Shown one piece after another: positions 1 through 5,866 of a DNA stretch of 64,000 bases. Source of the DNA: an uncultured Pirellulaceae bacterium (GTDB lineage: Bacteria; Planctomycetota; Planctomycetia; Pirellulales; Pirellulaceae). How positions within the stretch are numbered: position 1 is the stretch's first letter; each line of letters starts with the position of its first letter. The stretch covers positions 1 to 64,000 of the forward strand of contig CALCJM010000132.1 in the NCBI GenBank assembly GCA_937967505.1. The letters are read 5' to 3'. Position numbers and translations under genes: made by a program. Below the pieces are notes generated by a model. The model searched no databases, was not told the DNA's origin, and saw only the letters and a program-made list of their open reading frames with translations.

Positions 1-1
1 A

Positions 2-442
2 GTTGTCGCGATTGAGCACCAGCGAGGCGGTCGAGGCCGCGAAGTTTTCTACAGCACCGAAGTTACGGCCCAAGCAACCATGATTCTGTTGTGGTTCTCA
101 TGGCGATGGCCGATTGAAGTCACTTTTCTTGATAGCAAGCAGCATTTAGGATTGGGCGAAGCAGAGAACCGAAAAACGAAAGCGGTTCGTCGCACCGTTC
201 CAACAGGGCTGCTGATGTATTCGCTGATTGTTTTGTGGCACGAGTGCATTCGCCAGAAACCGGCTCCTTCGCTCCGCAAATGGCGTGGGAAGGAGCACGC
301 TTCTTTCGCCGAGATGGTGGCCGCATTGAGAACCGACTCTTTAGCCGATTTCCGGAGAAAACATTTATCAACCCCCGGGATTCCAAGGGCGGTTCATAAA
401 ATACTCAAGCCACTGGAATACCTCATCGCACTCGCTGCATAA
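2..442 (+). CDS. DDE-type transposase, C-terminal part (IS4/IS701-like), truncated by window start
   Basis: Frame is open from base 2 (VVAIEHQRGGRGREVFYSTEVTAQATMILLWFSWRWPIEVTFLDSKQHLGLGEAENRKTKAVRRT...). The RWPIEVTF-D-KQ-LG motif is typical of DDE transposase C-termini. Confidence 0.75.
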   Translation, partial: VVAIEHQRGGRGREVFYSTEVTAQATMILLWFSWRWPIEVTFLDSKQHLGLGEAENRKTKAVRRTVPTGLLMYSLIVLWHECIRQKPAPSLRKWRGKEHASFAEMVAALRTDSLADFRRKHLSTPGIPRAVHKILKPLEYLIALAA

Positions 443-650
443 CTGCGAAAGACGAAATAAGGCGTTGTCTCGATAACGGAAGCATTTCAGCATTGATCAA
501 GCAGCTATTTTCGTGGTCGCCATCCCAGTAAGGAGCACTGACCACCAAGTTAACGACAACCACCGTGTCGGAGGCAGAGCATCGTTCAAGTGTGAAGCAT
601 TCCCCTTCGCGATTTGAGTTAAGAGCGGCGATTACCAATGTGAATTCCAA
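423..650 (-). CDS. Putative cassette ORF, 3' end likely disrupted by the adjacent IS
   Basis: ORF (TTG start) begins immediately downstream of attC A on the minus strand and runs into the transposase end. Confidence 0.35.
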   Translation of the reverse strand: MEFTLVIAALNSNREGECFTLERCSASDTVVVVNLVVSAPYWDGDHENSCLINAEMLPLSRQRLISSFAVMQRVR

Positions 651-653
651 GCG

Positions 654-744
654 GGATAACGTCAGGGATCACCGGGCACGAACGAAAAACTAACCACTTC
701 ACACCCGCCCGAATGAGTGCTCCGTGTGCATCCCATTGTTATCC
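654..744 (-). repeat. attC-like site A
   Basis: GGATAAC...GTTATCC ends. On the minus strand, arm GGGAT[G]CAC pairs with GTGATCCC and leaves one extrahelical G. Confidence 0.8.
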
Positions 745-819
745 GACGATTGAGGGCAGCGTTGCTTGCCATTACATTTTACCGCGAATCACGCACTTTA
801 CGGCAAATTAAATAGATGC

Positions 820-1068
820 CTAACGATTTGTGCTCTTTTTGTATCTGTTCATGTAGACCAACGAATTGATTGCCAGAAAGACCAACATGCCACCGATAGT
901 TGCGGGGTGCACCACAAATTTGGGTAATTTCTCCACGGGCAACCAAGCAAGTGCGAACCAACCCAACCCCAGAAAGATTTGCAGATAGATTCCATAGGAA
1001 ATGTATTTTAGCGATCGTTCTCCCGCTACCGAATTGTTCTGTTCAGAAGGCATATTCATTTGGGCCAA
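820..1068 (-). CDS. Cassette-encoded small membrane protein (about 2 TM)
   Basis: 82 aa with hydrophobic stretches YISYGIYLQIFLGLGWFALAWL and IGGMLVFLAINSLVYM; lies between attC A and B. Confidence 0.55.
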   Translation of the reverse strand: MAQMNMPSEQNNSVAGERSLKYISYGIYLQIFLGLGWFALAWLPVEKLPKFVVHPATIGGMLVFLAINSLVYMNRYKKSTNR

Positions 1069-1160
1069 TAGTTAAATATTTGTTTGAGTGTAGTGAACGG
1101 TACATTCTAGCAGGTTTGGTTAACAAGTCGTTTGCCATCTCGAATCTGGTTGCTCGAGTC

Positions 1161-1251
1161 GGATAACGGCGGCGATCACCGGGCCGCGGCAATCGGCATT
1201 GATTTCAGAAACCGCGCGGCCCGCGGCTCCGTGTGAATCGCTTTGTTATCC
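1161..1251 (-). repeat. attC-like site B
   Basis: GGATAAC...GTTATCC ends. Minus-strand arm GCGAT[T]CAC pairs with GTGATCGC (one extrahelical T). CCGCGG stem. Confidence 0.85.
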
Positions 1252-1684
1252 CAGATATGGTGAAATTGCGAGTCCAACCGTCGCCACGATGAATAGCAAT
1301 CCCGTTATTACTGCGGACGCCTTTGCGGCAAAATCTAGATTTCCGAGTGAGCTTAAGTAGCCCCAAAGTACGCCGACCAAGCCGAGAAGACCAAACGCTG
1401 CGATTATAAAGGGCAACAGCGATGGGCCACATCGCCGCGACAAAGAAGTGCTCTTGCACTCCTTGCCAAGACGAGGCGAACAGGCCGCGGTATCCATGTT
1501 CTCCAAACACGAAAATCACAAGCCAAATTGTTGCGGCAACACCGACTAGGCCGCCAATGATTTTAGCATCTTCATTCCCTACGTCGAACATCTTCAAAAC
1601 GCCGAAAAACACCACTGCTGTCCATAACGCAGCAAAGAGGCCGATCAGCAGAGACGCGGCGATAAAAAGAATGGTGTGCAACAT
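1246..1684 (-). pseudogene. Cassette-encoded multi-TM protein with apparent +1 frameshift near 1395-1430
   Basis: N-terminal frame (MLHTILFIAASLLIGLFAALWTAVVFFG...MWPIAVALYN) continues as FIIAAFGLLGLVGVLWGYL...GLAISPYLG* in the +1 frame. The final TAA lies inside GGATAAC of attC B. Confidence 0.55.
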
Positions 1685-1720
1685 TTCGTGTATCCGAACG
1701 ATCTACCCATTGGGTCTTTG

Positions 1721-1812
1721 GGATAACGGCAGTGATCACCGAGCCGGAACGATTGGTCATCCATTTCAAAAGCACGCGCAAGTCCGGCTTCGCGTGTATC
1801 ACATTGTTATCC
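1721..1812 (-). repeat. attC-like site C
   Basis: GGATAAC...GTTATCC ends. Minus-strand arm GTGAT[A]CAC pairs with GTGATCAC (one extrahelical A). GCCGGA/TCCGGC stem. Confidence 0.85.
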
Positions 1813-1873
1813 GGCGCATTCTGCATTGGCCGAAACCGGAACACCGCGAGTGCGATCAACGCAGGGATTTGTC

Positions 1874-2104
1874 TCAACTCTTTGCCAGACGCCGGCGGTT
1901 TCGGCCTGCGATCATGAGAATCACGGGAACACCAAATGCGAACAGCGCCCCCGAAGCAAAGCCGTATGTCAGTCCTGCGTACCAGTTCGTCGAGATTGTC
2001 ATAAAAAGACACATGGCACAACCAAACGCAATTCCTGCCCCAAGAAAAAGCCGAACCAATTGTAAGTAGAGTTTCATTGCAAACCTCAAATTTCCAGACG
2101 ACAT
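1874..2104 (-). CDS. Cassette-encoded small membrane protein (possible start at 2077)
   Basis: MKLYLQLVRLFLGAGIAFGCAMCLFMTISTNWYAGLTYGFASGALFAFGVPVILMIAG; lies between attC C and D. Confidence 0.5.
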   Translation of the reverse strand: MSSGNLRFAMKLYLQLVRLFLGAGIAFGCAMCLFMTISTNWYAGLTYGFASGALFAFGVPVILMIAGRNRRRLAKS

Positions 2105-2170
2105 GTATTAATGATCATTGTCCGCAAATCTTCGCGGTTTATCAAGCAAATTCTGGCCAAGCCCGAAGCC

Positions 2171-2263
2171 GGATAACGTCAACGTTCACCGGGCCGCGGC
2201 GAAAGACATGCAAGCAGAAAAAGCCGCGCGGCCCGCGGCTCCGTGTGCAACGTATTGTTATCC
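2171..2263 (-). repeat. attC-like site D
   Basis: GGATAAC...GTTATCC ends. Minus-strand arm ACGTT[G]CAC pairs with GTGAACGT (one extrahelical G). CCGCGG stem. Confidence 0.85.
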
Positions 2264-2467
2264 GCCGTTGCATTGCGGAAAACGTACCATTGAAGTTACG
2301 GCTCGCCAACGCTTGCGATGTCCGCGCACTTCGTAACGTTCGATAGCATTGTCCATTACCAGCACGTGTAAATCAAGTCGATTCTGCGCGAGCATGTCGG
2401 CGCGCTGTGTTTTTTGAAGTGGCAAAACGGTCTGCCTCACGCAAAGCCGCGAGGTTGTTGTCCGCAT
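2258..2467 (-). CDS. Hypothetical cassette ORF
   Basis: Minus-strand ORF whose TAA stop falls inside the GGATAAC R'' box of attC D (AAC GGC GGA TAA C). Coding status otherwise uncertain. Confidence 0.35.
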   Translation of the reverse strand: MRTTTSRLCVRQTVLPLQKTQRADMLAQNRLDLHVLVMDNAIERYEVRGHRKRWRAVTSMVRFPQCNGG

Positions 2468-2546
2468 TTCAATCTTGCATCATCTAAAACGAAATGCGGA
2501 CGACTACCGAAGTGGCGGAGCGTATTCAACCAAGGCCTTGGAGGAA

Positions 2547-2610
2547 GCGACGTTCTCCCGCCACATGAAAACACTATCCAATCTAAAGTCATGTGGCGGG
2601 AGTACGTCGC
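2547..2610. repeat. 22-bp near-perfect inverted repeat (hairpin), 21/22 matched, inside a cassette
   Basis: GCGACGTTCTCCCGCCACATGA ... TCATGTGGCGGGAGTACGTCGC. Confidence 0.7.
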
Positions 2611-2839
2611 GCCCGGACGTTAACTCAGAGTGAAATTCTCCAATACCAATTCGCCGGTTCTGTTTTGGTTTTGAATCGCGTTTGTGCGGTTTCCAATCGG
2701 TGCGACTTAAACCACGCTTGCGAATAATTGGTGGCGATTGAAGTCAGCCATCGAAACTGGGCTGAAATACTGGTGCTGCGTTCAAATAAACGAGCATGTC
2801 GATGATCGCACGCGCCGGTGGTGTTTCATTGACTGAGGC

Positions 2840-2932
2840 GGATAACGTCAGCGTTCACCGGGCCGCGGCGAAAGTCATGCAAGCAGAAAAAGCCGCGCGG
2901 CCCGCGGCTCCGTGTGCAACGTATTGTTATCA
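2840..2932 (-). repeat. attC-like site E
   Basis: Nearly identical to site D through the body, but the right end is GTTATCACGC, whose complement GCGTGATAAC occurs at 3467-3476. Confidence 0.85.
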
Positions 2933-3346
2933 CGCGTCAGTTCGACGATGAGGCACTATTAGATTGAAAAGAGTAACTGCTATCCATCCCGAACTCACTG
3001 ACACCAATGAAGCAATAGGGCATAATATCATACACAATACAACAGGGCCAAATACCAAAGCAAAACTATCGTCGATATTCGAGAAAGATTTGTCATGAAA
3101 GAGACATCCCCACAAAGCGAGCACCCAAAGCACAAAGACGAGGCAAGCAATGAGCGATGCTCCAATTTGCGCAGCGACTTTTAACGGGTGTGAATTACGA
3201 AACTGCAGGGACGCGTAAGCCCCAAGCAGCACGGCGGAAGCAAATACATGCACTTTGAGTTCTTCCCCATCGTTGGCGCTGAAGCTCCACACGACCGCTG
3301 AAAAAAAAGTTGCAAGTAAAAACAGCGATGATGTGCGGAACTGCAT
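2930..3346 (-). CDS. Cassette-encoded multi-TM protein
   Basis: 138 aa, MQFRTSSLFLLATFFSAVVWSF... with several hydrophobic segments. Stop TGA overlaps the GTGATAAC box of attC E. Confidence 0.6.
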   Translation of the reverse strand: MQFRTSSLFLLATFFSAVVWSFSANDGEELKVHVFASAVLLGAYASLQFRNSHPLKVAAQIGASLIACLVFVLWVLALWGCLFHDKSFSNIDDSFALVFGPVVLCMILCPIASLVSVSSGWIAVTLFNLIVPHRRTDA

Positions 3347-3466
3347 ACAATTTATGATTCGAATTATTAACGCCGAGTTAAGCTAATCCACGTTCTGTAA
3401 AACAAAACTACCCGTCGTTACTAGGTTGTCGGGCCGTGCATTCATCCTCTGTCGTGGTGAGACGCA

Positions 3467-3476
3467 AGCGTGATAA
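3467..3476 (-). other. Cassette boundary (attI remnant or truncated attC)
   Basis: GCGTGATAAC is the exact reverse complement of GTTATCACGC at site E. No full attC fold follows it. Confidence 0.5.
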
Positions 3477-3839
3477 CGATTTACTTATCGGCGGAAGCTG
3501 ACCGGGAAAGTCCGGAAATCACGACTTATCACCTGAAAGCGCCAATTGTTGACAAGAATTATCGCCGTGTCAAGAAAGTTCATTTTCGGAAGAATGGGGG
3601 TTTTGGGTGGTGCGCGGTGAGTTGGTCATCAGTTGAGGCGGTGTGTGATATTGCCAGATCTGAGGTGTACTGCGTCTGCCTGATATCTCTCGTACGACAC
3701 ATTGTGGCTGCAATTTCCGGAGGTTTTTCATTGGCCCCTCCGGTAGCCATCCACCCTAAAAAACGGTTGAAGTGCTGCTTGCTTGGTGGGGCAAAAGTTT
3801 GCTTCGCAAGATCCAGATGCGCTCTGCGATCACTTTGGA

Positions 3840-4616
3840 TCATCGCCACAATTGATCGTCGTTGAAGGGGTGGATTGGGGCGTCGAATTGAGGCGCTGGC
3901 ATCCCCTGCAGAAATAGCCCGGCCAATTGCAGGTCATCTTGTGTGGTGATTTTGATGTTCAAACGCGAGCCGGGGACCATTGCAACAGGCAGCCCTTGCT
4001 GTTCGGCCAGTTGTGCCTCGTCGGTTGGCTGCGCCTGGTTGGTCGGTTGAAGTGCGCCCCGTTTGTCGGGTTTGTCTCGTTGGGCAAACATTTGCGTTAG
4101 CAACGCGCGCTCAAAAACTTGCGGGGTCTGCGACAGGTAAAGGTTGCTGCGATCGACGGTTTGGTCCACAAACTGGCCGTCGGTCGAGCGTTTGAGCGTA
4201 CTGTGGACCGGGACGGTTGGAACCGCAATCTTGTGCTCCCGTGCCGCTGTGAATACCGCATCGACCATGGCGTCATGAATGCAGGGGCGCGCTGCATCGT
4301 GAATCGCCACAAATTCTATCTCAGGCCGCACTTGGCCCAGCGCATTGCCCACAGAATCCGAGCGCTCGGCACCGCCGATGACCACATCGATTCCGTGGAT
4401 GGCGATGTTGGCACCGAATTTCATCCTGAATTCGTCCTGGTCCTCCCGGGCAATGACCACAATCAACTGCTTGACTTCGGTGCGTTTTAAAAACAGTTCC
4501 GCCGAGTGTAGCCAGACGGCTTTACCGGCCAGAGGTGCGAAGGGTTTCTTGGTGTTGGCAGTGCTGAAGCGACTGCTTTTCCCGGCAGCGGCAAGGATCA
4601 CGCAAAAGTTGGGCAT
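3840..4616 (-). CDS. ispD: 2-C-methyl-D-erythritol 4-phosphate cytidylyltransferase
   Basis: N-terminal VILAAAGKSSRF, FVAIHDAARPCI, QTPQVFERALL: IspD motifs. Confidence 0.9.
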   Translation of the reverse strand: MPNFCVILAAAGKSSRFSTANTKKPFAPLAGKAVWLHSAELFLKRTEVKQLIVVIAREDQDEFRMKFGANIAIHGIDVVIGGAERSDSVGNALGQVRPEIEFVAIHDAARPCIHDAMVDAVFTAAREHKIAVPTVPVHSTLKRSTDGQFVDQTVDRSNLYLSQTPQVFERALLTQMFAQRDKPDKRGALQPTNQAQPTDEAQLAEQQGLPVAMVPGSRLNIKITTQDDLQLAGLFLQGMPAPQFDAPIHPFNDDQLWR

Positions 4617-4669
4617 AGCGAAACGCGCTTGGTAAAGCGCTTCATTGAGCGAGCGGAGGCAGAGAGCAA

Positions 4670-5866
4670 CTAGCGTTCTTCGCCCAATTGTAGCGTGATG
4701 CGAATCATTTGTCCTCCGCGCAGCACATCCAGTTCGACGCGGTCGCCCGGGTTTTTTTCTTCGACCACAATTTGAAGATCATCCAAGCCGCTGACGGGAT
4801 TGCCGTCGATGCTGGTGATGATGTCTGCCGATTCCTTGATCCATTTAGGCACCACGACGCGCTGGTTGCCGAGTGCGATCACTTGCCGTTCGGCCCTCAG
4901 GCCTTGCAACCCGGCCTGGTCCGCTGGCCCACCGGGGACGACTTTGGCAACGCCAATCCCGCGATCGGACTTCCAGAAATAATCCACTCCCAGCCACGGG
5001 CTGCGGAATTTCCCGAATTGAATCAGTTGCGGCACTACCCGCTTGATCGTGCGGGCGGGGACCGCGAACCCGACCCCCGAGTTACCTCCATTGAGTGTCG
5101 CGATCGCGGTGTTCATCCCCACCAGCGTCCCACCGCTGTCCAGCAGCGGTCCGCCCGAGTTACCCTGATTGAGTGCGGCGTCGATCTGGATGACATTGCG
5201 AATTTGCTGTCCGCTTTTAGAGTCCAGCGAACGGTTCAGGCTGGAAATGATGCCGACGGTCATCGTGCGGTTGAGTCCAAAGGGGTTTCCGATCGCAAAA
5301 ATCTTTTGCCCGACGCGCAGTGAATCTGATTCGCCAAGGCTGACCGGCGACAACCGATCCGGATCGATATTGACTTTCAGCACGGCGATATCATTGCGGG
5401 GATCGACGCCGATGACTTCGGCCGGATAGGATTCGGCTTCGCCCAGTGTGACGTTGACGATGTCGCTGTCCTGAACAACATGGTAGTTGGTGACAATGTG
5501 TCCGGCTTTATCGAGGACCCATCCTGATCCTGATCCTTCTTTTTCCTGCGCGCCCAACCAACGTACGTTGACGATGGTTTTGGTATCGATATTGACGACA
5601 CTTTTCTGGCATTTTTCATAGACGCCGATATTGGTTTGTTCGTCGGTACTGAAACGACGCATCGCCGGGCCGTTAGCGTTTTCAACGGGCAACGGTGCGC
5701 GCCCCATGTTGCCGGCGCGTACTGGTGGGTCTTCGAATCTGGGCGACTGGGGACGCAAAGTTTGTTGGGCGGTGGCCGGTTGTTCCAACCATTGTTGGGA
5801 CAGTGCGATCACAAACGCCCCGCCCATCACTCCGGCCAGGAAACAGATCAATACATTGAACTTCAT
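4670..5866 (-). CDS. HtrA/DegP-like trypsin-like serine protease with PDZ domain
   Basis: VVNIDTK...HIVTNYHVVQDSD...NDIAVLKV...QIDAALNQGNSGGPLLDSGG; C-terminal PDZ. Start set at MKFNVLICFL (signal anchor). Confidence 0.9.
   Translation of the reverse strand: MKFNVLICFLAGVMGGAFVIALSQQWLEQPATAQQTLRPQSPRFEDPPVRAGNMGRAPLPVENANGPAMRRFSTDEQTNIGVYEKCQKSVVNIDTKTIVNVRWLGAQEKEGSGSGWVLDKAGHIVTNYHVVQDSDIVNVTLGEAESYPAEVIGVDPRNDIAVLKVNIDPDRLSPVSLGESDSLRVGQKIFAIGNPFGLNRTMTVGIISSLNRSLDSKSGQQIRNVIQIDAALNQGNSGGPLLDSGGTLVGMNTAIATLNGGNSGVGFAVPARTIKRVVPQLIQFGKFRSPWLGVDYFWKSDRGIGVAKVVPGGPADQAGLQGLRAERQVIALGNQRVVVPKWIKESADIITSIDGNPVSGLDDLQIVVEEKNPGDRVELDVLRGGQMIRITLQLGEER

Follow-up and report, generated by a model that had tools for sequence, protein, structure and literature searches.

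Setting and layout of the array

The stretch of DNA analysed here (the window) comprises bases 1–64,000 of a 76-kb contig from a draft genome of 5.03 Mb (183 contigs, 88.9% complete), whose planctomycete origin, proposed earlier from the sequence alone, was borne out. Six cassette boundaries lie between 468 and 3536, all on the minus strand. Read along that strand, the locus starts with ispD, which ends at 3840, and continues through about 300 bp to an attI-like site (3536–3473), five cassettes and the beginning of a sixth. The complete cassettes carry attC sites at 2840–2932 (attC1), 2171–2263 (attC2), 1721–1812 (attC3), 1161–1251 (attC4) and 654–744 (attC5). Only the start of the sixth cassette is present (468–659, R′ at 660); an insertion sequence (IS) interrupts it before its attC, and no further attC was found to the left of this cassette start. 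The IS end occupies 1–460 on the plus strand and encodes the C-terminal part of a transposase (stop at 442), so that the contig starts within the element. Its breakpoint in the sixth cassette falls at about 456–468, copies elsewhere in the genome terminate at 453–468, and six more matching places occur on five other contigs of this genome. A Pfam search yielded no family assignment for the IS, and an Rfam search of window positions 1–5000 gave no match.

Structure of the attC sites

The sequence-only reading had described five inverted repeats of about 92 nt alternating with minus-strand ORFs, and these are present as described, with R″/R′ core boxes bearing AAC and GTT, unpaired central spacers and an L″/L′ helix. 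The GGATAAC start that it assigned to all five copies holds for four, but the copy at 2839–2933 (attC1; R″ TGATAAC, extrahelical G) begins GTGATAAC, while its R′ is still GTTATCC. This R′ departs from the GTTRRRY consensus, agreeing with it only in GTT, the A and the final Y, but the R′ of the textbook dfrA14 attC reads GTTATGT.

DNA folding of the single strands recovered the attC shape: a 7-bp R helix, then 3–4 unpaired bases, then an L helix whose unpaired bases, up to three in number, are confined to the R″ side. The extra base noted previously is thus found in all five arms, but folding allows up to three unpaired bases where a single one had been claimed. Counted from the end of the R″ AAC, the extrahelical base stands at the 9th position in 5/5 window sites and in 10/10 textbook sites, and in all 15 a 3-bp arm flanks it and the L′–R′ gap measures 5–6 nt. 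On the minus strand the minimum-energy fold gives the attC shape in four of the five sites; attC1, the R″ of which mismatches the array R′, folds differently there and adopts the attC shape on the plus strand. Folding energies of single sequences on the coding strand were only mildly better than those of shuffles (z −0.9 to −2.8), and energy alone is therefore no proof of structure.

Covariation of the stems with retention of the extrahelical base, another element of the initial description, was upheld. Across the five copies 96.6% of stem cells are paired, with double-sided changes at 6 of 24 pairs; none of 500 shuffles reached this level, and slid versions of the alignment paired at 29–50%. 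The same structure is seen in 149 distinct congener copies, in which 95.9% of cells are paired and 12 pairs show double-sided changes, in an alignment that was fitted to the model.

The identity of the sites was also examined with a covariance model that owes nothing to the window, built solely from ten attC sites of known class 1 resistance cassettes in plasmid regions (a model made here, distinct from that of IntegronFinder). When it was run over both strands of the 64 kb with no filters, the best five matches were exactly the five sites, on the minus strand, at 30.9 (attC5), 24.1 (attC2), 24.0 (attC4), 18.3 (attC1) and 14.2 bits (attC3), followed by a sixth-best match at 10.8 bits. E-values for the five ranged from 1.1e-5 to 0.24, the latter for attC3, which is a weak match to the textbook model.

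Cassettes and their ends

Cassette 1 (2846–3476, 631 bp) contains an ORF at 2930–3346 for a protein of 138 aa with about three hydrophobic segments, whose stop lies within R″; by analogy with known integrons, its position next to attI would make it the only cassette expected to be expressed from an integron promoter. Cassette 2 (2177–2845, 669 bp) holds no convincing gene (a 69-aa ORF lies at 2258–2467). It has two strong internal hairpins, at 2453–2508 and 2547–2610, and is possibly regulatory or a decayed cassette. Cassette 3 (1727–2176, 450 bp) and cassette 5 (660–1166, 507 bp) each encode a small protein with two hydrophobic segments (76 aa at 1874–2104 and 82 aa at 820–1068, respectively), and cassette 4 (1167–1726, 560 bp) bears a membrane-protein gene that looks frameshifted (frames 1205–1684 and 1246–1506). 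The earlier picture of a single minus-strand ORF in each interval needs small corrections at cassettes 2 and 4. All cassettes lie on the minus strand; in four of the five, including the frameshifted one, an ORF precedes the attC in the same orientation and encodes a small protein with two or three hydrophobic segments. The cassette proteins had no significant match in Pfam or PADLOC.

In the circular form of a cassette, its start pairs with the R″ of its own attC. Within the window, R″ and its flank complement the start of their own cassette over 9–10 nt in 5/5 cases, versus 6–8 nt for every other boundary, and four textbook cassettes gave 8–13 nt for their own ends versus 5–6 nt. For 178 cassettes of a finished congener (G025), mean complementarity was 8.96 nt with the own end, 7.40 nt with the array partner and 7.36 nt with random ends; own exceeded partner in 98 cassettes, fell below it in 13 and tied in 67 (Wilcoxon p 2.5e-14). 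A formerly circular unit is expected to show such complementarity, whereas a generic palindrome family gives no reason for it. Copies of the repeat are indeed spread over many contigs of this genome, and some are isolated or interrupted, as a dispersed REP- or MITE-like family imitating attC would be. Nevertheless, the textbook attC geometry, the uniformly oriented arrays and the adjacency to intI and attI seen in relatives speak against that explanation, which the class 1 model matches and the own-end complementarity already contradict, and we consider it barely credible. These repeats are true attC sites of an integron, flanking five captured cassettes in the chromosome of a marine, Mariniblastus-type planctomycete; the cassette-array interpretation first made from the sequence stands, given the own-end complementarity in 5/5 cassettes and the same sites in arrays of relatives.

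Recurrence in the genome and in relatives

Scanning with a model of the five sites located 30 places on 12 contigs of the same genome at E < 1e-3, the window's five among them; of 60 genomes searched, 37 had matches at E ≤ 1e-5 and 14 had IntI scoring above the NCBI curated cut-off. An R1-type attC adjoins intI in four relatives (G007, G027, G020 and G002), and the canonical order of intI, attI, cassette and attC could be read directly in G007 and G027. When the whole array was used as a DNA query, the matches listed, from 31 genomes, all fell on attC sites and none on cassette bodies; among those matches, the sites are common to relatives and the cargo is not.

The scanned parts of the finished 6.57-Mb genome of G025 (C1) contain at least 201 attC sites, with arrays of 92 (2.352–2.407 Mb), 81 (2.666–2.718 Mb), 20 and 6, and hence 199 of the 201 lie in arrays of at least six rather than as the stand-alone dispersed repeats that would have undermined the original reading. 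The only intI detected there, at 3.500 Mb, has no array beside it, and the large arrays lie 0.2–1.5 Mb away. In several congeners, as in the present genome, attC arrays were found with no intI. Several IntI lineages exist within one genus (L114–L126), 37–53% identical to the G017 type, and one attC type adjoins at least three of them.

Elsewhere in the own genome, the 5′ ends of group II introns are joined to the attC L″ arm in 7 of 9 copies (L050:1364, L053:3936 and 5215, L055:6961, L058:5777, L059:3229 and L054:2088). This recurrent sequence, which adjoins many of the attC sites, had been considered an IS91 end, an assignment dropped once Rfam identified group II introns there; no reverse transcriptase gene was found on the intron-bearing contigs of this genome. 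A different recurrent sequence abuts the R′ of four attC sites (L058:3645, L059:3693, L053:3866 and L054:4434), the junction reading CGTT|GAACTTAAACAG or a near variant of it.

An attI-like leading edge

The edge of the array facing ispD resembles an integron attI site by comparison with a few congeners. A profile built from four congener attI sites, with the window left out, found its best window match at 3536–3473 (E 4e-4; next match, 1.1). In this putative site the core GTTATC starts at 3477, and the G|TT cut would be expected between 3477 and 3476. Of 34 genomes, three contain the 17-nt pattern RATAANTANATNGTTAT: G011 and G020, at their intI-proximal attI, and the present one, at the array edge; as the variable positions of the pattern were picked knowing these three sites, the result measures specificity and not three matches. 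GATAA is found at about −53 and at −12 in the attI-like site, as in G011, G020 and G036. The two-part pattern GATAA-N35..39-GATAANTANATNGTTAT occurs only in G011, G020, the array edge and G036 (4.1 Mb searched, both strands counted), and the match in G036, which belongs to a different genus and lay outside the pattern design, is 600 nt from intI.

An integrase acting in trans might have inserted cassettes off-target, into an ordinary (attG-type) chromosomal site that never had a local intI, an origin that is among those proposed for CALINs (PMC8618304) and that is in keeping with the distance between the large arrays and the sole intI found in G025. An off-target site would not be expected, however, to share about 60 nt of attI-like sequence with the intI-proximal attI of G011, G020 and G036, and we regard this origin as improbable. 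The CALIN label given by the sequence-only reading is apt in that at least two attC sites are present with no intI nearby, but it overlooked the attI-like site. With that site taken into account from the sequence comparisons, an integron whose integrase was lost, or is missing from the assembly, describes the locus better than a bare CALIN does.

The missing integrase and the ispD–scpA neighbourhood

The IntI profile TIGR02249 had no match on the window contig. Weak matches at 3579–3683 (E 0.15–0.9) were dismissed as chance, their strand being wrong for a divergent intI. No IntI was found in the draft genome, which is 89% complete; its best matches were XerC, XerD and an IS91-linked recombinase, all of which lack the IntI-specific insertion found between the catalytic patches of the congener IntIs. 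The last of these candidates, a 252-aa protein on contig C104 beside an IS91-type transposase fragment, was rejected as IntI for lack of this insertion; this tyrosine recombinase lies upstream of the transposase fragment (L009:1209–2805), and C104 itself bears attC. The earlier statement that there is no integrase ORF is accordingly true of both the window, which starts at contig base 1, and the 89% complete draft.

In a complete integron intI is adjacent to attI, an arrangement that is not found here. The expected intI start, 600–735 bp past attI, would lie at about 4073–4208, where ispD is found instead (3840–4616, minus strand; Pfam IspD E 3.4e-51). In two close congeners (G001 and G005) ispD and scpA are adjacent, convergent genes that lie within a few hundred bases of each other. 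In the present genome they are separated, and attC flanks the gap on either side: scpA lies on contig C81, the far end of which has attC on the matching strand. The simplest reading is that ispD and scpA bound one integron island with attI at the ispD end and intI deleted, in which C81 would join the window contig. Because the ispD–scpA spacer differs between congeners, no base-exact empty site is readable. In the G017 clade intI is surrounded by DUF2461-like, RluD-like and glycosyltransferase genes; the present genome does not conserve this neighbourhood, which is therefore of no use for judging an intI deletion. Another congener, G006, has a 3′ fragment of intI that contains an in-frame TGA (L081, G006:C249:29159–29374) and is likely an intI remnant.

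Loss of intI is likely, although in a draft of 183 contigs and 89% completeness the gene may be unassembled. The array might then be part of a complete, working integron that was split by assembly, its intI residing in the unassembled 11%, and merely seem integrase-less. Congener contigs with intI often stop no more than about 1.2 kb from it, at the first cassettes, draft genomes inflate CALIN counts (PMC9024848) and the window contig itself begins inside an IS. On the attI side, however, the sequence is contiguous from attI through about 300 bp to ispD, with no break at the expected place of intI; consequently, any intI elsewhere in this incomplete draft would be unlinked, as in G025. We consider such a split unlikely, albeit a serious contender.

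Discussion

We propose that the array belongs to a chromosomal integron island, of which it forms the leading (attI) end, and that the integrase gene of the island was lost or is absent from this draft; we assign this reading a probability of roughly 0.88. An IntI-type tyrosine recombinase would have recognised the folded bottom strand of each attC (the plus strand of the window) via the R and L helices together with the extrahelical bases. It would have cleaved the R′ core at G|TT and inserted circular cassettes at attI (3473–3536), with the newest nearest attI, such that the array extended from ispD toward scpA. The intI gene, 600–735 bp beyond attI, would then have been deleted, the break falling somewhere between 3536 and 3842, and the IS would afterwards have cut the distal side of the array. 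Without a local integrase the five cassettes would be frozen, unless an integrase acts in trans. The order of these events, like the role of IntI as builder, is a reconstruction.

CALINs, planctomycete intI and models of planctomycete attC have been published already (PMC9024848, PMC2426708 and PMC8352920), and since planctomycete integrons are known, the locus is a moderately interesting member of a well-known gene-capture system. Among the papers searched, none linked integrons and Mariniblastus. The locus offers a clear, checkable case of how an integrase-less array may originate, with attI kept, intI gone and array-free comparison sites in two congeners. Among published origins of CALINs, which include off-target insertion, intI loss and rearrangement (PMC8618304), it favours intI loss. 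More broadly, it belongs to a genus with unusually large, integrase-distant arrays, that could serve for studying the upkeep of silent cassettes in bacteria other than Vibrio. A tentative and rather doubtful extension is that Mariniblastus-type planctomycetes hold very large cassette reservoirs uncoupled from integrase and perhaps both maintained and shuffled in trans by diverse IntI lineages with one attC type in common.

The locus resembles a CALIN as defined in IntegronFinder 2.0 in having at least two arrayed attC sites and no detectable intI nearby (CALINs average about 6 attC; PMC9024848), but it differs in keeping an attI-like leading edge. With group IIC-attC introns (PMC7923331) the genome shares intron ends joined to attC bottom strands, although the usual insertion site of those introns is TTGT/T, whereas the introns of this genome join at the L″ arm beside the extrahelical base and lie outside the window array. 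The sedentary chromosomal integrons of Planctomycetota (PMC8352920 and PMC2426708) belong to the same phylum, and in congeners IntI, attI, cassettes and attC follow the standard order, from which the window array differs in being without intI. Relative to the class 1 mobile integron (IntI1, attI1 and resistance cassettes), the array is chromosomal, with an R′ core of GTTATCC, attC sites of about 92 nt and a cargo of small membrane-protein or unknown genes among which no resistance gene was recognised; yet the attC geometry and the position of the extrahelical base are identical in the two systems, and the IntI of a congener is 46% identical to IntI1.
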